NCBI RefSeq assembly: GCF_025370785.1
Contig: NZ_JAMXFA010000008.1
Coordinates: forward strand, 1 to 64,000
Source: Laspinema olomoucense D3b
Lineage (GTDB): Bacteria > Cyanobacteriota > Cyanobacteriia > Cyanobacteriales > Laspinemataceae
DNA length: 64,000 bases
Reading direction: 5' to 3'
Shown: piece by piece, positions 36,605 through 62,415 of the stretch
Layout of the letters: every line of letters begins with the position of its first letter
How positions within the stretch are numbered: position 1 is the stretch's first letter
Program-made: the position numbers and the translations under genes
The notes under the pieces: generated by a model
The model's input: the letters and a program-made list of their open reading frames with translations, nothing else
What the model was told of the DNA's origin: nothing
The model's database searches: none

Positions 36605-36869
36605 TTCATCAATCGAGGAATTTAAAGTAAACTACCCGACACTAAGCTGAGTACAGCTATAATGGGGGCTTTTAAAGAAGCCTAGAGTTTACCCGACTAA
36701 GTACCTCGCGTACTACGTTTTGGAAGCCATCACACCTACGGATACGAAGCCAGTCTGTAGCTCTGTGGTTAACGATTAAACAGGTATATCGGGTCGAAAC
36801 CAGTGTCGTTAGCGCGACAAACTTCTAAAACATTGTCAAGGCTACCATTACCCGTAAGGAGACTCACTC
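36605..36869 (+). ncRNA. IscB omega-RNA (HEARO), boundaries approximate
   Basis: The 240-base region directly before iscB is rich in pairing: GTAAAC (36627-36632) with GTTTAC (36687-36692), twin CTACCCGAC/TTACCCGAC strings, GGGGGCTT...AAGCC, and GTGTCGTTAGCGCGACA. Position and content match HEARO RNA, the guide RNA scaffold of IscB. By the known IscB design, the guide is the 5' end, i.e. the flank at roughly 36605-36625. The 3' end reaches the ribosome site (AAGGAG) of iscB. Confidence 0.78.
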
Positions 36870-47209: not shown

Positions 47210-48148
47210 TTGAAAGAAAGTAAAATGCTAAAACAATGGGCATCTCAGAGTAAATGGCTCCCCATTATTCTCAAAGACCGGAATTATAATTTACCTAAAG
47301 AATTTGGAAAATGGAGTGCTATTGCTACAGAATTGGCCTTGTGTATGGATGTTGACGATTTGGGAAAAACTCGGTTAGATGCAGCTTCGCAATTAACTAC
47401 TAACCGAACATTTCTCTGGTTTTTAAGTGATTCACCAGTCTATTGTTTGTCGAGTAATTTACTCAAAGATTTATTAGAAACTGATGTCAATAAATTATCA
47501 GCAATTGCTGGATTAGTTGACACAGTTCCCTTGCACACTTTGATGCTGGTCTTTCCATCTTGGTTCAAAACACCAGATGGTTATCCTATCAAATATGCAA
47601 TTTTACATTGGGGCGATAAAGCCAAACCAGAACAATCAATAGCATCAGGTTATGGGAAAACATTAGAATATTTACCCCAAGAATATCAGGTCAATATTCA
47701 TATATGTTTTTGTTGTAACTTGGGTGATGTTGTTTGGTTCTCTGGAACTGGATTAGAGGATGGTCAAATCAAAATTAATAACGATTATGCTTTTGGTAAT
47801 GCAACAATTACCGAAGATGAAAAAACGTTCATTGAACAATTGCGTAGTCTGACCATTCAAATATTCATGTTGTTAGCCTATAAACCTGAATTACTCGATT
47901 CTACTGATGTTGATGATGTAACCAAAGATTTTGGGAAAAAACATCCCCCGAAAAATTTTACTTCACCAAAACGTTATCCTAGAATGTTAGGGAAACATTA
48001 TCAAAATCCCAGTCTGAAATCTCACACTCCTACTGGAATCAAACAACGCACCCATGTCCGCAAAGGGCATTGGAAAGAAATTCCTTGTGGTCCGGGCAAA
48101 CAACAACGTAAAAAGATTTGGATTCAACCTTATTGGGTAGGACTTTAA
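47210..48148 (+). CDS. AcrVA2-like candidate anti-defence protein (312 aa)
   Basis: The C-terminus (THVRKGHWKEIPCGPGKQQR, KIWIQPYWV) resembles, from memory, the C-terminal HVRRGHW...G.G....WI.P..V block of AcrVA2, an anti-CRISPR that blocks Cas12a. The middle part (LHTLMLVFPSWFKTPDGYPI) also has the hydrophobic strand pattern. Homologues are widespread on phages and plasmids and most have no known target. The TTG at 47210 has AAGGAGG 5 bases upstream and is preferred to the ATG at 47225. The gene precedes the CRISPR locus and follows ardA. Confidence 0.5.
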   Translation: MKESKMLKQWASQSKWLPIILKDRNYNLPKEFGKWSAIATELALCMDVDDLGKTRLDAASQLTTNRTFLWFLSDSPVYCLSSNLLKDLLETDVNKLSAIAGLVDTVPLHTLMLVFPSWFKTPDGYPIKYAILHWGDKAKPEQSIASGYGKTLEYLPQEYQVNIHICFCCNLGDVVWFSGTGLEDGQIKINNDYAFGNATITEDEKTFIEQLRSLTIQIFMLLAYKPELLDSTDVDDVTKDFGKKHPPKNFTSPKRYPRMLGKHYQNPSLKSHTPTGIKQRTHVRKGHWKEIPCGPGKQQRKKIWIQPYWVGL

Positions 48149-48481
48149 CGATATAATAGTGGAGGGTAAATGAACTTTCCACTACCGCCCATTCATTGTC
48201 ATGCAAGAGTTGCCAAAAATTTTTCAACTATTAATTCAAATAATTGGTCAAGAAATAAGTTTTTTTACATTGCTTCATCTTCATTTAATAACAAGTAGTT
48301 GTGTTTGGGATTCAGTGAGGTGCTCCGCTCCAATGTCCTAATGTCGGCAGGACAATTACTCGTGCAGTTGGGTTGGCGATTTAGTTAGGTGATCGCTCAA
48401 CTGCCATTGAACCAATCTCCTCAAATTAGAAAAGCATTTTTCTCCCTCTCAAAAAAACAATATAGGTGTTATTTCACCACC
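48149..48481. other. Spacer after the element genes
   Basis: No supported gene. A short ATG frame at 48201 (46 codons) has an unlikely tail. GTCCT...AGGAC and GCAGTTG...CAACTGC pairings suggest folded RNA or remnants. The right edge of the integrative element should lie here, but no tRNA-derived direct repeat is visible. Confidence 0.4.
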
Positions 48482-48498
48482 TTTCAGCACCTTTTCCC
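48482..48498. repeat. CRISPR-repeat remnant at the TnpB element right end
   Basis: TTTCAGCACCTTTTCCC at 48482-48498 matches bases 2-18 of the array-1 repeat exactly (plus-strand form), and the array-2 repeat in the other direction, then stops at ATGAAGC. On the minus strand it reads GGGAAAAGGTGCTGAAA directly after the TnpB element end, i.e. where the omega-RNA guide would be. It lies 1.7 kb from array 1. Confidence 0.85.
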
Positions 48499-48640
48499 AT
48501 GAAGCTCTCCCCCCTTGCAGAAAGCGAGGTGGGGGTGTTCTATGCTAATCTCAATCTCTCGTGAGTCCAGAGATCACATAAACAAGCCCAGCTTCTAGGC
48601 GACCCACCAGAACGTTTGCTGGAGAGGTCCTCACTGTCAT
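48499..48640 (-). ncRNA. TnpB omega-RNA (reRNA), approximate
   Basis: TnpB omega-RNAs overlap the 3' end of tnpB and run to the element's right end. Here the minus-strand tail (CACCCCCACCTCGCTTTC, then GGGGGGAGAGCTTCAT) is GC-rich with C-tract/G-tract pairing and ends at 48499-48500. The bases beyond it form the guide. The 5' limit is not visible and is only estimated. Confidence 0.55.
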
Positions 48641-49895
48641 TTCTGCGAGTGAGTTTAAGGATGCCCCGGGCTGCAATATTTTGGTTCCCATTCAGGTCAC
48701 AGTTATACTGCCGACCGTTTTGGAATACTGCCAGGGCATAATTTTTGGAGTCTCGCTTGACTCGGCCCGAGCCATCGTAAGCCAGTTTTGAGGTGTAGGC
48801 GGCAACAACATCAATTACCTTCCCACCCTTTTCTTGCCACTTCATTTCGGTGTAGTCGCGGATTTTGGCCTTGAGCCAGCCATGAAACCGTTGCCGCAAG
48901 TTTGAACGTTTCCGTCCACCCTTGGGCGTCCAACCTTTCAGATTCTCAAAGACAATTGCCTCTGAGTTAAACTGGCTGGCTATTTGGACAATCCGCTTAG
49001 AAACGATGTGGCTAATCTGCTTGTTGATGTTCGCGCATTTTTGGTAAGTTTTAGAGCAGAAACCTTTATGTAGTTTTCCCCCTTTACCCATTGTCTTAGA
49101 TGCCCGCATGGAGACGGATTTGAGTCGTTTATCTCGGCGGTCTATGTCTCTTCCCGTGTTCACAAATTCACGATGGATTACAGTGCCGTCGAAAGTTACG
49201 ACCGTGACTGTTGCTGTCGTATTAATTCCCAAGTCAACAGCCACTACATTTTGCTCAGGGTTCTGTTTCGGTGGCACACAATGAAACGGTACCGACAGAT
49301 GACAGACTTGGCTGTTAAAAATTAGAGTCGGAGACAACATCTTGTTGTCCGGTAACTTATGGCGTTCCCTAAGCCCACTAATCTGAACGGTTGTCCAAAT
49401 CCAGTCAGCCCCCGTAAACACCTTAATCTCAACCGCATTATAGTCATGCAGCTTGTAGCACTGCCCTTTATAGAGAACTGGATAGCAACCTGCATCAGCA
49501 TTGAGCTTATGTGGTTTGGCATCCCGACGATTACGGGATAGCCCCGTCTGCCAATCTACATACCGGGTCATGTAGCTATTAACCTGCCCAATGGCAAAGC
49601 TGATGGCGGCTCTGCGGTAGTAGCTAGGAAACTTGTAAAACACCCGATTGAATTGTGGGTATTTCACCACAGGCCGCTTTCCCGTAGAGTGCATCAATCG
49701 CTCTACGGCAGGGATTTGTTCATTGGACGATAAACCCCCTAACTCGGGCCAATGAGTGAAGATAATACCAACCAAATATCGACAAAGCCGACGATAGACC
49801 TTAACCGTTTCACTGAATAGATGACGCTGTTCAGCAGTTGGGTTGAGAGTCCATTTGTCGGTGCGAATAATTGGAGATGGTTGTTTGTGCTTCAT
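48540..49895 (-). CDS. tnpB: TnpB RNA-guided nuclease
   Basis: 451 residues from the ATG at 49895 (MKHKQPSPIIRTDKWTLNPT). RuvC-I is VVAVDLGINTTATV and RuvC-II is EAIVFENLKGW. The RuvC-III region carries CDLNGNQNIAARG with Asp, and the zinc-finger Cys pairs are replaced by SKLAYDGSGRVKRDSKNYAL, a variant known in cyanobacterial TnpBs. The nuclease residues are present. A TATAAT-like -10 at 49902-49907 on this strand is only 7 bases from the ATG, so the mRNA may be leaderless. The gene points away from array 1. Confidence 0.88.
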   Translation of the reverse strand: MKHKQPSPIIRTDKWTLNPTAEQRHLFSETVKVYRRLCRYLVGIIFTHWPELGGLSSNEQIPAVERLMHSTGKRPVVKYPQFNRVFYKFPSYYRRAAISFAIGQVNSYMTRYVDWQTGLSRNRRDAKPHKLNADAGCYPVLYKGQCYKLHDYNAVEIKVFTGADWIWTTVQISGLRERHKLPDNKMLSPTLIFNSQVCHLSVPFHCVPPKQNPEQNVVAVDLGINTTATVTVVTFDGTVIHREFVNTGRDIDRRDKRLKSVSMRASKTMGKGGKLHKGFCSKTYQKCANINKQISHIVSKRIVQIASQFNSEAIVFENLKGWTPKGGRKRSNLRQRFHGWLKAKIRDYTEMKWQEKGGKVIDVVAAYTSKLAYDGSGRVKRDSKNYALAVFQNGRQYNCDLNGNQNIAARGILKLTRRNDSEDLSSKRSGGSPRSWACLCDLWTHERLRLA

Positions 49896-49974
49896 GGTGA
49901 AATTATAACACATTGGTACATTAATATTCCTAAAAGTCCATATATTTTCAAGTGGGAATACCTGGTTATTTTTC

Positions 49975-50037
49975 TTCAAATACTTGCCGTTTAGCCTTCA
50001 GAATCGAAAGCGGTCACATCAAATAAATCGCAGTCAT
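49975..50037 (-). pseudogene. 5' relic of cas1, truncated by the TnpB element
   Basis: On the minus strand the relic encodes MTAIYLM, a stop, then PLSILKAKRQVFE; the intact cas1 at 61351 begins MTAIYLMRSPTILKAKRQVF. The Arg codon has become TGA. Upstream sequence (TCATATAAAACTAACCCAAA) also matches the region before the intact cas1 (TCATATAGAACCAACCCAAA). Homology stops at 49975 where TnpB sequence begins. Confidence 0.85.
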
Positions 50038-50190
50038 AGGCTCACTTAATTGAAAATTACAACGGATTAATTGTTTCTATTCTGGCAAGAAACCATTAGA
50101 TTTATTGTATGAGTTTGGGTTAGTTTTATATGATTTTTATAGGAGTTAGCTAATCCGATTAAATTCCTTCAAGTTTTTCAAAAAAACCGC

Positions 50191-50225
50191 ATTAAAAAAG
50201 TAGTCAAAATACAATCAACTACTTT
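50191..50225 (-). terminator. Terminator of CRISPR array 1
   Basis: On the minus strand AAAGTAGT (50218-50225) and ACTACTTT (50197-50204) form a hairpin followed by a T-run (A-run on plus at 50194-50199). It is the counterpart of the terminator after array 2 (61155-61187), with a near-identical loop (GATTGTATTT). Confidence 0.8.
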
Positions 50226-52204
50226 GTTTCAGCACCTTTTCCCTTTAATAAGGGTCAAACCCTTCTGTTACTTTTTCTCTGTTACCTGTTTCTCCTGGGT
50301 TTCAGCACCTTTTCCCTTTAATAAGGGTCAAACACCAGATGCTATCTTCACAGTAAAAATTATTGTTATTGTTTCAGCACCTTTTCCCTTTAATAAGGGT
50401 CAAACTTGTCTTTATCTATTGCTGCTGGAGTTTTTAATCCAGTTTCAGCACCTTTTCCCTTTAATAAGGGTCAAACAATTGATTAGCCTTTTCCTTTTTT
50501 CATAGCTACTTAGTGTTTCAGCACCTTTTCCCTTTAATAAGGGTCAAACATTTCTTTTCGGACTGCTACCAACATTCTTTTGTCTTGTTTCAGCACCTTT
50601 TCCCTTTAATAAGGGTCAAACAAATGCGAATGCCTCTATTTACATTGGCAACACGAAGTTTCAGCACCTTTTCCCTTTAATAAGGGTCAAACGTCCTTCC
50701 CATCGGGGAAGGCGGTGAGGAGGTCGTGTTTCAGCACCTTTTCCCTTTAATAAGGGTCAAACTGGCGTTACCGTCCAAGCTGCACAGCTTAATGTGTATG
50801 GTTTCAGCACCTTTTCCCTTTAATAAGGGTCAAACCTGACACTGATGCCGTTTATGCCATCATAAAAGTGTTTCAGCACCTTTTCCCTTTAATAAGGGTC
50901 AAACAGTGGTCAAATCGATGCCAATGTAACGGTTTCTAGATGGTTTCAGCACCTTTTCCCTTTAATAAGGGTCAAACTCTTCCATTTTTGCTAGGGGCTC
51001 TTGTAGCTCTAGGTAGTTGTTTCAGCACCTTTTCCCTTTAATAAGGGTCAAACTTTTTTTACTGCTACCCCAGTTCGTTCGCAAGTAGTTTCAGCACCTT
51101 TTCCCTTTAATAAGGGTCAAACTTTTGGAATACGGATCGAAACGTTATCCGCTCAAGCCCCAAGTTTCAGCACCTTTTCCCTTTAATAAGGGTCAAACAC
51201 TGTTCGAGTAACCGGGAACAACGGTTCCCTGACAGTTTCAGCACCTTTTCCCTTTAATAAGGGTCAAACGCAATATCGGAAATTTATTCCTTGAGACCGG
51301 AAAGTTTCAGCACCTTTTCCCTTTAATAAGGGTCAAACAGTTGTCGGTGTACCAATAGCAATTGATATTGCCAGTTTCAGCACCTTTTCCCTTTAATAAG
51401 GGTCAAACCGGTTTGAACCGTGATGTGCTGTATTCTTTCGTTGGAAAAGTTTCAGCACCTTTTCCCTTTAATAAGGGTCAAACACAGTTGACGGACGCAT
51501 TTGGAGTGCAGCTCTCGAAGTAGAGTTTCAGCACCTTTTCCCTTTAATAAGGGTCAAACTGCGGTCGGTTCTGTTAACAGTTCGGGTGCCCAAGTGTTTC
51601 AGCACCTTTTCCCTTTAATAAGGGTCAAACAGTGTAGAGTTCGAGGCTAAAGGTGCAACTGGTGCAAGTTTCAGCACCTTTTCCCTTTAATAAGGGTCAA
51701 ACCGTTCCCACAGGATCTGAAACCATTGAAGGTGCTAAGTTTCAGCACCTTTTCCCTTTAATAAGGGTCAAACCTGATAATCTAACCATTAACGCCATTA
51801 ACGGCATGAATTGTTTCAGCACCTTTTCCCTTTAATAAGGGTCAAACAATGAGTTTGCGGATATGGATTTGGAGTCATTTATTGTTTCAGCACCTTTTCC
51901 CTTTAATAAGGGTCAAACTTCTTCGGACAAAATTTTTACCGTATTTTTGACGGTTTCAGCACCTTTTCCCTTTAATAAGGGTCAAACCCATATTTTGAAC
52001 CAAGAAATGGCTGAAGAATTGTTAGTTTCAGCACCTTTTCCCTTTAATAAGGGTCAAACACTGTTGCTTTGCTCGTTCTTGGCGCATCTACTGCTTGTTT
52101 CAGCACCTTTTCCCTTTAATAAGGGTCAAACTTCTAGCTCGTACAAATGACGGATTTCACGCAGTCCATGTTTCAGCACCTTTTCCCTTTAATAAGGGTC
52201 AAAC
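50226..52204 (-). CRISPR. CRISPR array 1 (28 repeats, 27 spacers)
   Basis: The 35-bp repeat on the transcribed (minus) strand starts GTTTGACCCT and ends AGGTGCTGAAAC; spacers are 34-41 bp. I counted 28 repeats starting at 50226, 50299, 50371, 50442 and so on to 52170, with no obviously degenerate copy. Direction is inferred from the GAAAC 3' end (5' handle of type III crRNAs), the leader at 52205 and a terminator at 50191. The repeat differs from array 2 at two positions (4 and 13). Confidence 0.97.
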
Positions 52205-52411
52205 CCTTAAGTCCTGAGACCCGGGCATAGAGCTAATTCTACACCATTGAATCTGAGGGGGTCAAGTTTTCGTAGCAACAGTTTCATGATTTGGGTCTGA
52301 AATTGGGGAAAATCATTGGTTCAAAGCCTTTTCCTGAGCTTAATCTGAGGGGGGTAACGAAAGAATGCGGGTTTCAGGACTAGCCTACCCCCCTCAGATG
52401 CTTATCATTGG
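52205..52411 (-). promoter_or_regulatory. Leader of array 1
   Basis: Read on the minus strand from 52411 to 52205: GATAAGCATCTGAGGGGGG, then ACCCCCCTCAGAT, a TGAAA-rich stretch, GTTGCTACGAAAACTTGACC, CCCTCAGAT and a short tail to the first repeat. The array-2 leader (59687-59889) has the same blocks in the same order. The 14-bp inverted pair ATCTGAGGGGGGTA...TACCCCCCTCAGAT could bind a regulator or Cas1. The bases from 52412 to 52500 show nothing I can identify. Confidence 0.8.
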
Positions 52412-52500
52412 ATAGAAAGTTATAATTTTTAGTAATAACTATTGGGAGGGCTTCACTTCAGATTACTCCTTAATTTTACCTTGTTCAAGGCGGGTTTTGC

Positions 52501-55500
52501 TTAGGCCCCTCTCATCTCTAAAATCAAACTGGCAATTTCGTCCCGATCGCCACTCTGTTGCAGGATATGATTCAACCAAGGTGAATCGACGCCCTCTACT
52601 CGCCGGATGGACAGAATGATGGTGCGCTGGTTTCGCCAAGGCAGGCGGTAGAATTCGCTGGTGAGGAGTTGAGGAAAAAATTGTCCCTCAACTCGGGCGA
52701 TCGCCGCGACTAAATCAATCGCTTTCGATTCCTGTACTCGTTTAAAATCAATAGAATGCAGCAATAACTTCGTCCATTGGCTGAGTCGTTCAGTTTGGGT
52801 GTTATCTTCTAACTGGGCGATAACATTGAGGGTATCAAGTAATGCTCCAGCGACTCCCCCCTCTAAGTTGGGATGGGTAGTGGCGCGTCTGACTAATTTA
52901 TCAACTTGATCCGAAATGCAAGACGGAATAGTTCGAGAATCGTCAATCCATGCTGTCACGATTTCACACAACTTTTGAATGACTTTAGGCTGAGTTTCTA
53001 CTTCAAAGGTTGTGCAGATTTCAGCTAACTCTTTCTCGGACAGAAGACGCTGATGTTTCTGAATTTGAATTTGAATTATTTCTAAGGCATTGAGTCGAAC
53101 ACCGGGATAGGGGGATTTGACTAAGGCTAAACTGTCTAACAGTTGGGGAAAATCTTGCTGAGAGGCTAGACTTAGCAAGGCTTTGGACGCTTCAAGGGCT
53201 GGTTTTCGCTCCGGGGACTGTGCCAGTACAATTAATCGCGATAAAGCCAGATTGGAAGTAACTGCTTCCAGGCGATTGATTTCCACTGTGGCTAACTCAT
53301 CTTTGACAATTTCTGAGTTCAATTCCCATCGACTTTTGACCTCGGGAGCCACTCGGAGCAGTTGTTGCAGTTGCGCGTCTGCCACTGAAAGTTCAGAAAT
53401 TTGTTCGAGCAGATTGACCAATTTTTCTTGCACCGTTGGCGCATTTTTGGCAAGGGGAATCAGGATGGGTAACCAACGTTCCGGTTCTTGGGAGGCGGGT
53501 TGATTACACCAGTCAATCAGTTGCTCTTTCTGGGTTTCGGTTAGTTCATTGCCTATTGATTTGATGACAGCCGCCAAAGCAGAAAGGCGCTCCAAGTGAG
53601 TCCCCTGAAATTGCACCAGTTTCTTAGCAATATCAGCAGCGACACCGGATAAACTGGCTTCGTCTAAAGCGATTAAATTGCTGCTGGTATGCCGGGGGTC
53701 TCCCGTCAATAAATCGGTCAAGAGTTCATCCAGAATTTCAGGAGACTGGCAAGCATATCGTCCAACCGCAGCGGCACAAACCCGGTCCCATCCCGTTTGA
53801 ATAGGGTAGTGAATCACTGCCAAAACTGAGCCAAACCAAGGATGATTTTCGTTAGTGAGTAACTGGGGAAACACGCGGACAGTGAGTTGGATGAGTTGCT
53901 GTTTCAATGAATTACTGGGACGTTTGGGTAAGGGAAATTGGATACAGGTTTCCCACAATTTTAAATAGGCTGCATCGGGCAATCCTCGCTCCAGATGTAA
54001 GCGGATTACTGTGGTTTGCGTTCCTTCGGCAAAGCTGGGATAATACTCACAAAGTATCGAGAATGCCTCGTCATCGGCGGATTCCCGGAGCAATGGCGTA
54101 CAAGATTCGACCACCGCACCCCATAAAAATGCTTGTTCTCTCTCTTCTGATTCTGCGGTACGTTGCCCGACTGCCCTCAAGACTTGCCGGAGGCGACTGC
54201 CAAGCTGAGTTGGCCAAGGAGTGAGTAACGACCCGAGATGTTGCGCTAGGGTTGAGGCGGTGGTGCGATCGCTCGACTTTAACTGCTCAACTGTGGCATC
54301 CCAGGCAGTTTCCGCTAAAGCTGTGGATGCCGATTCCAAGGCTTGACGGAGAATTTTTTGATAGATTCCAGTTTTCGTCAAGGCGAGTGGTAGTTGTTGG
54401 CGCAGCATGGCTGGGGTGTCCCGGGAAGCCGCTGCAAAGATAACGGCGCGAAACGCTTCCAAGCTGTCGGTGTTGAGTTGTTGCGCGACCGTTTCAAATT
54501 CCCCATCGTCGGCAATGGTTAACAATTGTCGCATGACAGACCACCAACTCCACAACGATCGCCCAGTTTCCGGTTGAGTGAGGGTGGCGATTAACTGTTG
54601 CCGTTGGGGTAAGCTGGATTGTCGCAGTAACCAGTAGGCGATCGCATATTCCAGTAAAGTTTGGTGAAAGAAGTGGATTTTTTGAGAAGGCAGTCGTTCC
54701 AAGACTCCCTCACTGAGCAAATCCCGATAAGCGGAGGCAGTGGTTTCGGTAAAGTCTATCCCCAACTCATCCAAATAAGCCGATTCGCACAGCCGTTCAC
54801 CGGAGAGGTCAAATAAGGCTTTGGCAATGTTCAAACAAAACTTTTCTTTCTCAATCGCCAGTAAAGCGGAATGACTGCGATCGACCCGGCTATAGGCGAC
54901 TTTCTCCTGCCAATATTTTTTGTACAGTTTGCTGACGGTTAAATCTTGGGGGACCCGGCCATCTTTGGCAAATAAATCACACAACAAGGCCAAAAGTAAA
55001 GGATTGCAGACGATTTCTCCTAAAGACCGATTATCCGCAGATAAAGCTAAAATTTTATCCGCAAAATTGTGATTTTCTACTGCCGGTTGCTTCTGGACAA
55101 AAGCCGTGGCAGCTTGGTAGACTTCGGTTCGGGTAAACTCTGGCAGGTGATAGCGGTCCACAGCAGGGGCCAATCCAGGCAGTTTTTCCGCCGTGGGTTC
55201 TAGGAAATCATGATATTCGCGATCGCGACAGGTAAAGACCAGGGTTGTACCCGCTTCCAGGAGTGAGGCAAAAACCCGACTCAAGGGCGGAACCAGGGTG
55301 CGGTCCAGGATTAAATCTAAGGTGTCGATGAGCAACAATCCGCGCTCGCTGGCATTCAACTGGGTGGCAATTTCCACAATGGAACGCTGCATACCGGCAA
55401 CACTCTCTCCCAAGGCGACTGCTAAGTTTTCCGCAGTCGGAGAATCTGGCAGCGTCAGAGAATTGCATAAAATCAAGCCAGTCCAACAGTTTGGATGGAC

Positions 55501-57254: not shown

Positions 57255-59255
57255 ATGGAATTTACGGAGACCTTACTCAGGGCCGCTTGGCAACAGGTGC
57301 GCCGGGGTTCGCGAATGGCGGGAGTGGATGGCATCACGGTAGATTGGTTTGCCGACAATCTCCAGATGCAGTTGGAGCAACTCCAGCATCATCTCACCCA
57401 GGAAACTTATCAGGCTAAACCCGCATTGGGCTTCTATTTGCCCAAGGCATCCGGGGGGAAACGGTTGGTGGGGATTCCTACCGTATCTGACCGCATTATT
57501 CAACGGTTATTGCTGGAGGAACTTTACTGGCCCCTTGAGGATACCTTTCTCGATTGTAGCTATGCCTATCGACCGGGGCGCAGCATCCAGCAAGCGGTGC
57601 ATCATCTTTATGCCTATTACCAATTTCAGCCTTGTTGGGTCCTGAAAGCGGATATTGCCCAATTCTTCGACAACCTCTGTTGGGCGCTGTTGCTCACTCA
57701 ATTGGAGCAATTGCAACTCGACCCGATTATCGGACAGTTGCTGGAACAACAAATTGCTGCCGGGATTGTGATTCGCGGACAATATCAAAACTTTGGCAAA
57801 GGCGTCTTACAAGGAGCTATACTTTCGGGCGCTTTAGCTAACCTGTACCTGACCGAATTTGACCGCCGCTGTTTGGCTGCCGGACTCAATCTGGTCCGCT
57901 ACGGGGATGATTTTGTGATTGCTACTGCCGATGCCACCCAAGCCCAGCGTAACTTAGAGCAAGTGCGAGGCTGGCTAGGAGAATTATATCTCACTTTGCA
58001 GCCCGAGAAAACTCAGATTTATGGACCCGATGAAGAGTTGACCTTTCTGGGATATCGGTTTGTCAAAGGTCAAGTCTATGCACCGCCACCGCCCGAACCT
58101 CGCGGGGATTGGCTGCTCTCTGCCTCGGGCGTTCCTTATCGGCGACAACGGCAACGACAACGATCGCGGGTTTCTCGTCCACCCCTTGCCTGTAGCCTGA
58201 AACCCGTTCACTTTCCCATTGCCAATCCTGAACATTTATGGAGTGATGCGATGACCACTTTGTACATCACCGACCAAGGCGCTTATTTGAGTGTCAAAAA
58301 TCAGCAATTTCAAGTGTTTTCTAACCACGAATTGCGCGTGAAAGTTCCTGCCAACCGGGTCAGTCATATTGTGTTATTTGGCTGCTGCAATATGTCCCAC
58401 GGAGCAGTTTCTTTGGCCTTACGTCGTCGGATTCCGGTGATGTATTTGTCGCAAAAAGGGCGGTATTTTGGCCGGTTGTACTCGGAAAGTCATGCCAAAG
58501 TTGAGTATTTGATTCAGCAAGTGCAACGGTCCCTCGACCCAGAATTTACCCGCCGCCAAGCCGAGGCGATTGTTCTGGCAAAACTGCACAATTCTCGGGC
58601 TTTGTTGCTCAAACTCAACCGCCGTCGTCAAACCGATGCCGCTTTGATTGCCTTGGAAATGCTTATCAGTTGCCGGGACAAATTGTCCTTAGCCGAATCA
58701 ATGGATGCCTTGCGCGGCTACGAAGGTAAAGCAGCATCCGCCTATTTTCAAGCCTTGGGTTCGTTATTCTCTGGACCCTTTGCCTTCGAGAAACGGACCA
58801 AACGTCCCCCAACTGACCCGGTGAATAGCATGATGAGTTTAGGTTACACCTTGCTCAGTCAAAATGTCCATTCCTTTGTCAACTTAGCGGGACTGCATCC
58901 GCACTTTGGCAATCTGCACGTCCCCCGGGACAATCATCCCGCATTGGTGTCTGATTTGATGGAGGAATTTCGCGCCCAAATTGTGGATTCCTTGGTGGCT
59001 TATCTAGTCAATTCTCAGATTTTGACCCCAGATGATTTTACCTTGCCCGATGAGCGCAATGGAGTCTATCTACAACCTCATGCTTTGAAGAAATATCTCA
59101 AGCACTGGGAGGATAAGTTGCTCTCGGAAATCACTCATCCCCATACGAACTACAAAGTTAGTTTAAAGCGGTGTATTGAGTTGCAGGTGCGAGAATATAT
59201 CGCCTGTTTAGTCGGGGAGGTTGAGGTGTATCGTCCCATGTTGTGGAAGTTGTAG
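57255..59255 (+). CDS. Reverse transcriptase-Cas1 fusion
   Basis: 666 residues. RT domain (about 1-270) with D133/D139 in KADIAQFFDN and the YGDD box at 216-219, then a Pro-rich linker (about 275-310). The Cas1 domain starts near 332 (DAMTTLYITDQGAYLSVKNQ) with E490 (GYEGKAASAYF), H555 (FGNLHVP) and E570 (DLME). No Cas6 domain is attached. All key residues are present, so it should acquire spacers from RNA as well as DNA, as shown for other RT-Cas1. It stands between two divergent arrays and is the best candidate for the locus integrase. Confidence 0.96.
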   Translation: MEFTETLLRAAWQQVRRGSRMAGVDGITVDWFADNLQMQLEQLQHHLTQETYQAKPALGFYLPKASGGKRLVGIPTVSDRIIQRLLLEELYWPLEDTFLDCSYAYRPGRSIQQAVHHLYAYYQFQPCWVLKADIAQFFDNLCWALLLTQLEQLQLDPIIGQLLEQQIAAGIVIRGQYQNFGKGVLQGAILSGALANLYLTEFDRRCLAAGLNLVRYGDDFVIATADATQAQRNLEQVRGWLGELYLTLQPEKTQIYGPDEELTFLGYRFVKGQVYAPPPPEPRGDWLLSASGVPYRRQRQRQRSRVSRPPLACSLKPVHFPIANPEHLWSDAMTTLYITDQGAYLSVKNQQFQVFSNHELRVKVPANRVSHIVLFGCCNMSHGAVSLALRRRIPVMYLSQKGRYFGRLYSESHAKVEYLIQQVQRSLDPEFTRRQAEAIVLAKLHNSRALLLKLNRRRQTDAALIALEMLISCRDKLSLAESMDALRGYEGKAASAYFQALGSLFSGPFAFEKRTKRPPTDPVNSMMSLGYTLLSQNVHSFVNLAGLHPHFGNLHVPRDNHPALVSDLMEEFRAQIVDSLVAYLVNSQILTPDDFTLPDERNGVYLQPHALKKYLKHWEDKLLSEITHPHTNYKVSLKRCIELQVREYIACLVGEVEVYRPMLWKL

Positions 59256-59318
59256 CAAGTTTTCGTCACCTCCACAAATTCAGTCTAGCCACAGCAGTAA
59301 TCCATCCCTTGTTTCCTA

Positions 59319-59594
59319 GTGCAGAACAAACTGCTGACCGGGACCCGAAAATTGCTGTTTCTTCAAATTGCTCAACAACCGGGAATTACCTCCGCCCAAC
59401 TCTGCTCCAACAGTTGCGCTAGAGGAGGAAACTTGTCCCGAATCAATCACCATCTAGCTGGGTTGATTGATGAAGGATTTATTTGCACTTCCTCTCGCAA
59501 CAAACGGGGCAAATCTCATTACCAAATTACCTCAACTAAGGGAAAACGAATGCTACAATTTTTACAGATGGCTCAAGTTGATGGCGAGTGTTAA
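59319..59594 (+). CDS. Winged-helix regulator, GTG start (91 aa)
   Basis: Starts GTG (MQNKLLTGTRKLLFLQIAQQ); helix-turn-helix with TSAQLCSNSCARGGNLSRINHHLAGLIDEGFICTSS and a basic wing (RNKRGKSHYQI), similar in layout to MarR-like or ArsR-like DNA-binding domains. It lies 63 bp after RT-cas1 and 90 bp before the array-2 leader, so it may regulate the leader or cas genes. Confidence 0.75.
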   Translation: MQNKLLTGTRKLLFLQIAQQPGITSAQLCSNSCARGGNLSRINHHLAGLIDEGFICTSSRNKRGKSHYQITSTKGKRMLQFLQMAQVDGEC

Positions 59595-59686
59595 ACGTTT
59601 TTGGGGATACTCACTTCCCACACAGCGTACCTCCATCACCCCACTGGGTGAGCAATGATTAACTCAACTTATCACTAGAGTCTGAC

Positions 59687-59889
59687 TGATAAGCATCTGA
59701 GGGGGGTAGGGTAATCCTGAAAGCCTTATTCTGCCGTTACCCCCCTCAGATTGGTCTCTATCAGAGCGTTTGAAGGCACGATTTTCCGTGATTTGAGGCG
59801 AAAATGAAGCGGATGTTGCTACAAAACCTTGACCCCCTCAGATGTAGGGGTGTACAATTGGCTCAACGCTTGAGCTTCAAAACTCAAGG
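59687..59889 (+). promoter_or_regulatory. Leader of array 2
   Basis: CTGATAAGCATCTGAGGGGG (59687-59706), then ACCCCCCTCAGAT near 59745, TGTTGCTACAAAACCTTGACC near 59815 and CCCTCAGAT near 59835. The same blocks in the same order occur in the array-1 leader. Directly followed by the first repeat at 59890. Confidence 0.8.
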
Positions 59890-61150
59890 GTTCGACCCTT
59901 ACTAAAGGGAAAAGGTGCTGAAACAGTTGCTTCGCATGCCCACAGGGCAGCGAACGGACGTTCGACCCTTACTAAAGGGAAAAGGTGCTGAAACTCCCAA
60001 AACACCCGTGGAAGCGGTCCTACAATACTGTGTTCGACCCTTACTAAAGGGAAAAGGTGCTGAAACCGAATTACGAGCAGGGTCGAACTGAGTGGAAACA
60101 TCGGTTCGACCCTTACTAAAGGGAAAAGGTGCTGAAACAGGATTTTCATCCTTATCTTCCCCCATTCCCTCGCAGAGTTCGACCCTTACTAAAGGGAAAA
60201 GGTGCTGAAACAGCGGAATTAATCGCCCCTGGCATGTGGTACCAAAAGTTCGACCCTTACTAAAGGGAAAAGGTGCTGAAACAGGCAGAAGAAAAACTTG
60301 CTGCATTCGGGTCGAACTGTTCGACCCTTACTAAAGGGAAAAGGTGCTGAAACTTCAATCATTAACAACTGAGTTTCGACCAACAAATTCCGGTTCGACC
60401 CTTACTAAAGGGAAAAGGTGCTGAAACCGGGAATGTCTCCGTAGGCAGTGCCATCGAAAACATTCGGTTCGACCCTTACTAAAGGGAAAAGGTGCTGAAA
60501 CACTGAAATTTTCCTACAGGTATTTGGGGGAAATCATTAGTTCGACCCTTACTAAAGGGAAAAGGTGCTGAAACCTTCCTCCTCTTCTAACACAGTGATA
60601 CTTAAGACGTTCGACCCTTACTAAAGGGAAAAGGTGCTGAAACCCGAAAATGGTCGTAGCCAGCAGATCCTTCAATGTTCGACCCTTACTAAAGGGAAAA
60701 GGTGCTGAAACAATGCCGCATGGTGGGCAACCAACATGAAAAATGCCGAGTTCGACCCTTACTAAAGGGAAAAGGTGCTGAAACAATAATATGTGTCCTC
60801 CCAGTAAGGACACGATTTTTGCTGTTCGACCCTTACTAAAGGGAAAAGGTGCTGAAACTTAGTCCGGTTGTCCCGGCTAATTTGAACATCTAAAACAAGT
60901 TCGACCCTTACTAAAGGGAAAAGGTGCTGAAACATAAGGTTTATAGTAATTACCATCACCATTAGTACATAGAGGTTCGACCCTTACTAAAGGGAAAAGG
61001 TGCTGAAACTTTCGGAAATACTGCTTAATAGTCCGCCCAAAAAAGTTCGACCCTTACTAAAGGGAAAAGGTGCTGAAACCGACAGAGAGATGGATCGAAG
61101 GGTTCTGGACAAAAAGTTCGACCCTTACTAAAGGGAAAAGGTGCTGAAAC
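59890..61150 (+). CRISPR. CRISPR array 2 (18 repeats, 17 spacers)
   Basis: The 35-bp repeat starts GTTCGACCCT and ends AGGTGCTGAAAC; it differs from the array-1 repeat (same orientation) at positions 4 and 13 (T to C). Spacers are 33-41 bp. I counted 18 repeats beginning at 59890, 59960, 60032 and so on to 61116. Direction follows the leader on the left, the GAAAC 3' end and the terminator at 61155. Confidence 0.97.
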
Positions 61151-61154
61151 GCAT

Positions 61155-61187
61155 AAAAGCAGTCGATTGTATTTCGGCTGCTTTTTT
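61155..61187 (+). terminator. Terminator of array 2
   Basis: AAAAGCAG and CTGCTTTT with loop containing GATTGTATTT, followed by more T. It is the counterpart of the terminator at 50191-50225. Confidence 0.8.
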
Positions 61188-61350
61188 AGTGGGCTTTGAC
61201 AAAAAAACTGAGGAAATTTAATCGATTTAACTAAGTCATATAAAAAATCATATAGAACCAACCCAAACTCATATCTAAACTCCAATAGCCCATTGGCAGC
61301 ATAGAAACATAGCGGATTAATGCGCTATAGCCTTTAACTCAAATAAGCCT

Positions 61351-62415
61351 ATGACTGCTATTTATTTGATGCGATCGCCTACGATTCTGAAAGCTAAACG
61401 GCAAGTCTTTGAACTGTGGTATCAGGAGCGATTGGAGTATCGGATTCAGGCCAAACTGACGAGTCATATTGTGGTTTGCCACGGTTGCGAACTCTCCGGT
61501 GAGGCGACGGCATTGGCATTGTCTTATCAGTTGCCGGTGTTGTTTCTCGATGCTGATTATCGGTATTTGGGACGGCTTCATCTGGAATCCCCGGCTCAAT
61601 ATCTATCTCAACAACTGCAACGAGCATCAGATGCGGAGTTTTGCCAATCCACCGCAGAACGAATCGTGAGTGCAACTCTGCACAACCGTCAAGCCTTGTT
61701 GCTGTCTTTAGCTTCTGGCTGTTGTCCCACGGTCGAAATCGCCCTGGAAGCGATCGCCTTCTTCCTGGATGAGATTCCCAATGCCAATATCGAACAACTG
61801 CGCCGGTATTTCGCCACCATCAATCAAGTGTACTATCCAGCTTTGCGCGAGTGGCTGTGGCTAAATGCCGCCGTAGAACCCGCCGCCGTGAATCAGTTTT
61901 TCCACCTGAGTCAGGCGCTGTTAGAACAGGTGGGGTTAGGGTTGGTCCTGGAAATGGGACTCGACCCCGAACTGGGCGGATTGCACCTGAGCGATGGAGA
62001 AAATCTGCCTCTGGTGCGGGATTTGATGCTGGAGTGGTCGGTGGTGTTAGTGGACCGGGTGGCAATGCGGTTTGCCTTGTCTCATTCCAATTTTTTGGGC
62101 AACAGCAATGGCAATGGTCACGGCAACGGCAATGGCAACGGTCATCATCACGGTCATCCCCTGACTGATTTGATAACGGCCTGGGAGCAACAACTAGCGA
62201 CAGTTGCGACGAACAAAAAAACCTATCGTCAATGTCTGTGGCATCAAATCCGACATTACCGGCGCTGTTTGTGCAGTGATACCCCATACCGTCCGGCATT
62301 GCTGAAGTGGACTCCCCGGGAGATGAGTGCGCCTCAACCGTCTTGGCGAGGGACTCAGGTCTCTGAGTATGATAACCCGCAGCCTTGGAAACTTGAGTCT
62401 ATCCCCATGAGCTAA
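61351..62415 (+). CDS. cas1: Second Cas1, degenerate catalytic site, Asn/Gly/His insert
   Basis: 354 residues with the Cas1 fold pattern (LDADYRYLGRLHLESP, QQLQRASDAEFCQS). Compared with RT-Cas1, the first catalytic Glu is replaced (RRYFATINQVYY, F154), the His is kept (GLDPELGGLHLS, H212) and the second Glu of DLME is Leu (DLML, L227). An Asn/Gly/His-rich stretch (about 251-269, NSNGNGHGNGNGNGHHHGH) is inserted after the helical part. It is likely a non-catalytic Cas1 homologue or structural partner. It follows array 2 and precedes cas2 on the same strand. Confidence 0.85.
   Translation: MTAIYLMRSPTILKAKRQVFELWYQERLEYRIQAKLTSHIVVCHGCELSGEATALALSYQLPVLFLDADYRYLGRLHLESPAQYLSQQLQRASDAEFCQSTAERIVSATLHNRQALLLSLASGCCPTVEIALEAIAFFLDEIPNANIEQLRRYFATINQVYYPALREWLWLNAAVEPAAVNQFFHLSQALLEQVGLGLVLEMGLDPELGGLHLSDGENLPLVRDLMLEWSVVLVDRVAMRFALSHSNFLGNSNGNGHGNGNGNGHHHGHPLTDLITAWEQQLATVATNKKTYRQCLWHQIRHYRRCLCSDTPYRPALLKWTPREMSAPQPSWRGTQVSEYDNPQPWKLESIPMS

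Follow-up and report, generated by a model that had tools for sequence, protein, structure and literature searches.

The TnpB element and its ends

The window (the whole 64,000-nucleotide stretch of Laspinema olomoucense D3b DNA that was analysed) contains an IS605-type TnpB element without tnpA, on the minus strand at 48499-49974. Its length of 1476 bp is near that of its tnpA-less relatives (~1483-1590 bp). The intact tnpB gene (48540-49895, minus strand) encodes a protein of 451 amino acids, which matches the OrfB_IS605 family above the cut-off (PF01385, E=3.5e-9) and scores 76.5 bits against guided_TnpB (NF040570), under that profile's cut-off. In the alignment, the RuvC residues D/E/D are kept, and the CxxC zinc motif (zinc ribbon) is missing, as it is in the aligned relatives. 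Comparison with an 83% relative gave a dN of 0.10 and a dS of 1.0. (The dN/dS of ~0.1 against relatives reflects mostly the history before insertion.)

The features of IS200/IS605 membership are present: the OrfB_IS605 protein, insertion at TTGAA without duplication, and a right-end boundary with a subterminal hairpin. A Y1 transposase is a requirement for mobility, not for membership as an IS200/IS605 TnpB element. We found no match to the Y1 transposase TnpA (PF01797) in the 7.0-Mb genome. Because no TnpA-type transposase is detectable, the element is a stranded copy.

Two other features of the window deserve mention. An ArdA-like antirestriction gene (PF07275; 46430-47167) lies ~1.3 kb from the TnpB element. 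There is also a HEARO RNA (RF02033, 128 bits) at 36627-36851. This is the RNA of IscB-type elements, so the window holds a second kind of transposon-encoded RNA-guided system.

The ends of the element were mapped with empty sites and ~50 related elements from cyanobacterial genomes (protein identity mostly 63-83%). The outer sequences are G(49974)AAAAATAACC on the left and ...GAGAGCTTCAT(48499) on the right. At the right end, a hairpin and the conserved terminus GAGCTTCAT (48499-48537, minus strand) presumably form the 3' end of the omega-RNA scaffold; the stem of the hairpin departs from the family consensus at some positions. The ~50 related elements share the end point ...GAGCTTCAT. Their right ends all have the hairpin and GCTTCAT and diverge from the next base, which puts the boundary at 48499 and the start of the flank at 48498. 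This is where the initial annotation had placed it. A right end inside GGGAAAAGG is excluded by the same alignment.

The left end is degenerate: it reads GAAAAATAACCAGGTATTCCCAC (49951-49974, minus strand) and is identical to the best family left end at 22/32 positions. Left ends in the family are CAAAAATAGCGACGCATTCCCCC or near variants, nearly always after TTGAA. The score of this left end is the joint best among all minus-strand positions of the window (one other place ties), and its position makes the proposed assignment convincing.

From empty sites in relatives, it is clear that members of the family insert immediately 3' of TTGAA and do not duplicate the target. For five elements, the joined flanks align without gaps to an empty site (L057 with L204, at 100% identity; L064 with L205; L062 with L218; L063 with L209; and L087 with L212). 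The gap-free empty site at 100% identity reads TTTGAA/AACCC, where the slash marks the insertion point. These joins establish that the target is TTGAA, that it is not duplicated, and where the right end lies. Where joining the flanks restores a reading frame, most cases favour TTGAA and two (L054 and L066) favour TTGA. A four-base TAM (TTGA) is excluded by the gap-free empty sites with TTGAA.

A CRISPR half repeat at the guide position

The window has two CRISPR arrays. Array 1 (50226-52204, minus strand) has 28 repeats of GTTTGACCCTTATTAAAGGGAAAAGGTGCTGAAAC; its leader region (52205-52500, minus strand) is orthologous to that of a relative from the same genus (G003), with 94.4% identity over 3.9 kb including the upstream gene. 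Array 2 (59890-61150, plus strand) has 18 repeats of GTTCGACCCTTACTAAAGGGAAAAGGTGCTGAAAC. It is flanked by the parts of one type III locus (57255-62415), with an RT-Cas1 fusion gene (57255-59255, plus strand; PF00078 and PF01867) and a separate second cas1.

Directly after the right end of the TnpB element, in the guide position, is GGGAAAAGGTGCTGAAA (48498 to 48482, minus strand), the 3' half that is left when a CRISPR repeat is split at TTGAA. These 17 nucleotides are identical to positions 18-34 of the 35-nt repeat in each of the 28 array 1 repeats and each of the 18 array 2 repeats. (At the final position, the C of the repeat is a G here.) The window has 47 copies of the sequence, of which 28 are in array 1, 18 are in array 2, and the remaining one is at 48482-48498 on the minus strand. 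No copies are expected in shuffled sequence. The initial annotation had reported that the 17 bases after the TnpB end are identical to the repeats of both arrays, with 28 and 18 copies at distances of 1.7 and 11 kb, and all of this is correct. (Its interval, 48482-48640, also includes the hairpin of the right end and the 3'-terminal part of tnpB.)

The location of the half repeat is also informative. G003 has the same locus without TnpB, with array 1 and its leader between the gene at 47210 and the gene at 52501. In the window, the half repeat occupies the position of the end of that array, with the same flanking gene on one side and array 1 on the other. Synteny with G003 ends at 48297, and the 184 bp between there and the half repeat (48298-48481) have no credible match in 14 genomes of the family. 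The last base of the half repeat and these 184 bp match no known trailer or spacer.

Could the 17-nt match be unrelated to any CRISPR repeat at this site, and be due to chance or to a solo repeat-like sequence? There are non-array copies of the 17 nucleotides in G003 and in another relative (G006), and in G006 the match is followed by GAAAGG, as it is here. But the probability that a given 17-mer equals any 17-mer of the repeat, on either strand, is ~4e-9. As for the solo copies, the intergenic region that holds them is unrelated, the motif before them is TTAAA instead of TTGAA, and they have no further sequence in common with our site, which is at the end of array 1. We consider this explanation very unlikely. 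The solo copies, TTAAAGGGAAAAGGTGCTGAAA, are in the same place in the two relatives (L129, G006:C7:160542; L130, G003:C24:118239), between an sbtA-like transporter gene and a glycosyl-hydrolase-like gene.

Two further ideas were that the 17 nucleotides are a tracrRNA anti-repeat encoded by the plus strand, and that the system is of type V-K or V-U. These are excluded by three points: the arrays are accompanied by RT-Cas1 and type III genes, the TnpB is an ordinary one, and the 17 nucleotides begin at the conserved boundary of the element.

The motif before the 17-mer varies between arrays. Array 1 has TTAAA throughout (28/28 repeats), and array 2 has CTAAA (18/18). In the syntenic array 1 of G003, 33/33 repeats read GTTTGACCCTTATTGAA/GGGAAAAGGTGCTGAAAC. 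Thus, the array at this locus has TTAAA in the genome with the element and TTGAA in the genome without it, a difference of one base in every repeat. In G009, which is from another genus of the same family, 31/31 repeats read TTTGAA/GGGAAAAGG. The initial annotation had proposed ATTAAA or ACTAAA as TAMs; these are indeed found before the 17-mer in the arrays, but the motif of the element family is TTGAA.

As a side observation, the distal end of the G009 array (L235, G009:C1 near 4260426) is directly followed by a C-terminal remnant of a different TnpB (HDRDINAAINIRNEGLRILD). A related array thus also has the remains of a TnpB at its trailer end.

The left flank and the origin of the guide

If the element had simply inserted into a repeat and both halves had been kept, then the other half would be found on the left. 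This is excluded, as the left flank is a fragment of cas1, which the initial annotation had overlooked. The fragment consists of 63 bp from the start of a cas1 gene (49975-50037, minus strand), with a stop at codon 8 (MTAIYLM, stop, then PLSILKAKRQVFE), and it aligns with the cas1 gene that starts at 61351. The homology to cas1 stops at TTTGAA, exactly at the left end of the element, and the TTGAA target motif (49975-49979, minus strand) lies within the fragment. The cas1 sequence does not resume after the right end. The intact second cas1 gene (61351-62415, plus strand) contains the site CTTTGAA/CTGTGG, which is homologous to the left flank. Between the fragment and array 1 is a trailer (50038-50225, minus strand) that is a diverged copy of the trailer of array 2; together, the trailer and cas1 start behind array 1 are ~77% identical to their array 2 counterpart. 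(This second copy of the trailer and cas1 start, at 49975-50225, is missing from the G003 locus.)

Both flanks appear to follow the TTGAA rule yet to derive from different sites. The element would then be either a chimera of two insertions or a copy whose left side was replaced. Three histories would give this structure: two copies of the element recombined, another CRISPR locus with the element in cas1 supplied a new left side, or the element inserted once into a pre-existing fusion of cas1 and a repeat.

In the last of these, cas1 and a repeat were fused at their common TTTGAA before the element came, and one insertion hit the fused site. A single insertion would be enough, and cas1 and the TTGAA-type repeats do have TTGAA in common; with the G009 repeats, the shared sequence is TCTTTGAA. 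Nevertheless, we found no strain that carries such a fusion, and we think this history is unlikely, though not implausible. It would lead to the same guide and differs from our preferred account in history only.

Another possibility is a single insertion at the TTGAA in cas1, followed by a deletion that fused the right end to a repeat, so that the guide is the scar of a rearrangement. In its favour, the TTGAA site on the left is a canonical one in cas1, and no cas1 sequence follows the right end. But it needs an unlikely double coincidence: the endpoints of the deletion would have to be exactly the right-end boundary and the repeat position that follows TTGAA in relatives. We consider it very improbable.

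A canonical TTGAA insertion into a repeat like those of G003 gives exactly the junction that we see, with the right end followed by GGGAAAAGGTGCTGAAA. Given this, and given that the half repeat is found where the array of G003 ends, it is simplest to suppose that the element went into a repeat of the TTGAA type, at the distal end of array 1. We therefore favour the following account, which we consider highly probable. An IS605-type TnpB element would have inserted 3' of the TTGAA in a repeat of the form GTTTGACCCTTATTGAA/GGGAAAAGGTGCTGAAAC, and its right flank, hence its guide, would have become the 3' half of the repeat. At that stage, each TTGAA-type repeat would have been a matching target with a TAM, and the element could in principle have restored or copied itself at any of them. 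Later, the sequence on the left would have been exchanged, which brought in the second TTGAA site in the dead cas1 fragment, and array 1 came to have TTAAA throughout. Today's omega-RNA would carry a repeat guide with nothing to target productively in the genome that encodes it, and the element would be stranded, and disarmed against the resident arrays.

This account builds on what we observed: the ends of the element, the TTGAA rule, the identity of the repeat, the TTGAA repeats in the orthologous array, the lack of TTGAA targets (see below), and the lack of Y1 hits. We infer the order of the events, the activity of TnpB, and that it no longer cuts at TTAAA. In addition, we deduce from the repeats of relatives that the split repeat had TTGAA, as the left half is missing and the insertion is not visible whole. 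As one option, the initial annotation had suggested an insertion into a repeat that the element has retained as its guide; the mapped ends, the TTGAA motif, the empty sites, and the TTGAA repeats of relatives all favour this. The same junction was present in none of the 390 genomes of the order.

Potential targets and comparison with known systems

The initial annotation's other option was that the TnpB RNA is aimed at the CRISPR repeats themselves. The match in the repeats is long enough: in ISDra2, the TnpB guide is ~16 nt of the right flank (PMC8612924), and by analogy 17 nt would suffice. However, ISDra2 TnpB also needs a TAM (PMC8612924), and TTGAA precedes the 17-mer in 0/46 resident repeats. 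Elsewhere in the 7.0-Mb genome, we found no TTGAA followed by the guide, even with a 12-nt seed. TTAAA and CTAAA each deviate from TTGAA at position -3, which is the most sensitive TAM position in SisTnpB (PMC11043419). Because TTGAA is absent and position -3 is changed, the resident repeats are probably spared: the RNA is probably not aimed productively at them, and the element is probably disarmed against its own arrays.

Alternatively, the omega-RNA might be actively aimed at the resident repeats (for instance, to regulate or cut the arrays), with TTAAA tolerated as a TAM. Besides the 17-nt match, the RuvC residues are intact, the family is under purifying selection, and flexible TAMs are known for some TnpBs (PMC11043419). 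But the rule in this family is TTGAA, all 46 repeats are changed at the position that is most sensitive in the tested SisTnpB, and 46 cuts in its own chromosome should harm the host. We think that active targeting is very unlikely.

TAM-flanked targets for this guide would exist in arrays of the G003 and G009 types. In viral contigs, we found no targets with TTRAA followed by the repeat sequence.

What changed the motif in array 1? A TnpB that landed in a repeat would have been a weapon against every repeat, and its cutting might have purged the TTGAA array and selected for TTAAA in all 28 repeats. (One route, for example, would be repair from a TAM-less array, which would also have brought in the cas1 fragment.) Selection by self-cutting would yield the contrast between TTGAA and TTAAA; array turnover or replacement would yield it as well, and there is only one case. 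We find the idea that TnpB cutting drove the change from TTGAA to TTAAA attractive but unproven, and the full weapon scenario is doubtful.

The element is an ordinary member of a known family. What is new is the identity of its guide and the matching one-base difference between arrays. Among 53 elements of the family, mostly read with ~1 kb of flank, none has a repeat as its guide. We did not find a TnpB with a CRISPR-repeat guide in the full-text literature that we searched (whose coverage of subscription journals is thin). TnpB is regarded as the ancestor of the type V CRISPR nucleases, and our account bears on how those nucleases came to use CRISPR repeats: a CRISPR repeat sequence would have reached the guide position of TnpB through the ordinary target rule. 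The relative's orthologous array would then show what the locus looks like when empty, and the resident repeats depart from it at a single base, the one in the target motif that should matter most. If this TnpB cuts TTGAA repeats and spares TTAAA repeats, then the repeats of cyanobacterial arrays may be shaped by TnpB elements.

Among the most similar known systems are the IS200/IS605 TnpB elements, whose RNA is termed omega-RNA or reRNA, with ISDra2 from Deinococcus radiodurans as the example (PMC8612924). As in ISDra2, a tnpB gene is combined with an RNA scaffold at the right end, and the guide is taken from the right flank; both elements insert 3' of a fixed pentamer (TTGAT in ISDra2, TTGAA here) without duplication. 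Unlike in ISDra2, the guide is part of a CRISPR repeat, so that the original target existed in dozens of copies; also, the flanks of the present element come from two TTGAA sites, and there is no tnpA.

SisTnpB, from an IS605-type element of Sulfolobus islandicus, likewise has its guide directly after the right end and an A+T-rich pentamer as its TAM (PMC11043419). The right end is TTCAC in SisTnpB and TTCAT here. The TAM of SisTnpB is TTTAA whereas the target here is TTGAA, and the present TnpB is a putative nuclease.

Type V effectors that derive from TnpB, such as Cas12m of type V-M and Cas12f, also combine a RuvC nuclease of TnpB descent with an adjoining CRISPR array, and the present TnpB has weak similarity to Cas12f. 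However, the array here belongs to a type III locus with RT-Cas1, and the element sits at the trailer end with its own omega-RNA end. In a type V system, the effector would use crRNAs from the neighbouring array, and the repeat of that array would be joined to its scaffold; after the right end here, we found only half a repeat and no spacer-repeat unit.

Finally, in the TnpB gene drive on multicopy plasmids (PMC11870625), the guide fits many equivalent copies of the empty insertion site, as the repeat guide would have done here. In the plasmid system the copies are plasmids, while here they would be the repeats of one array.
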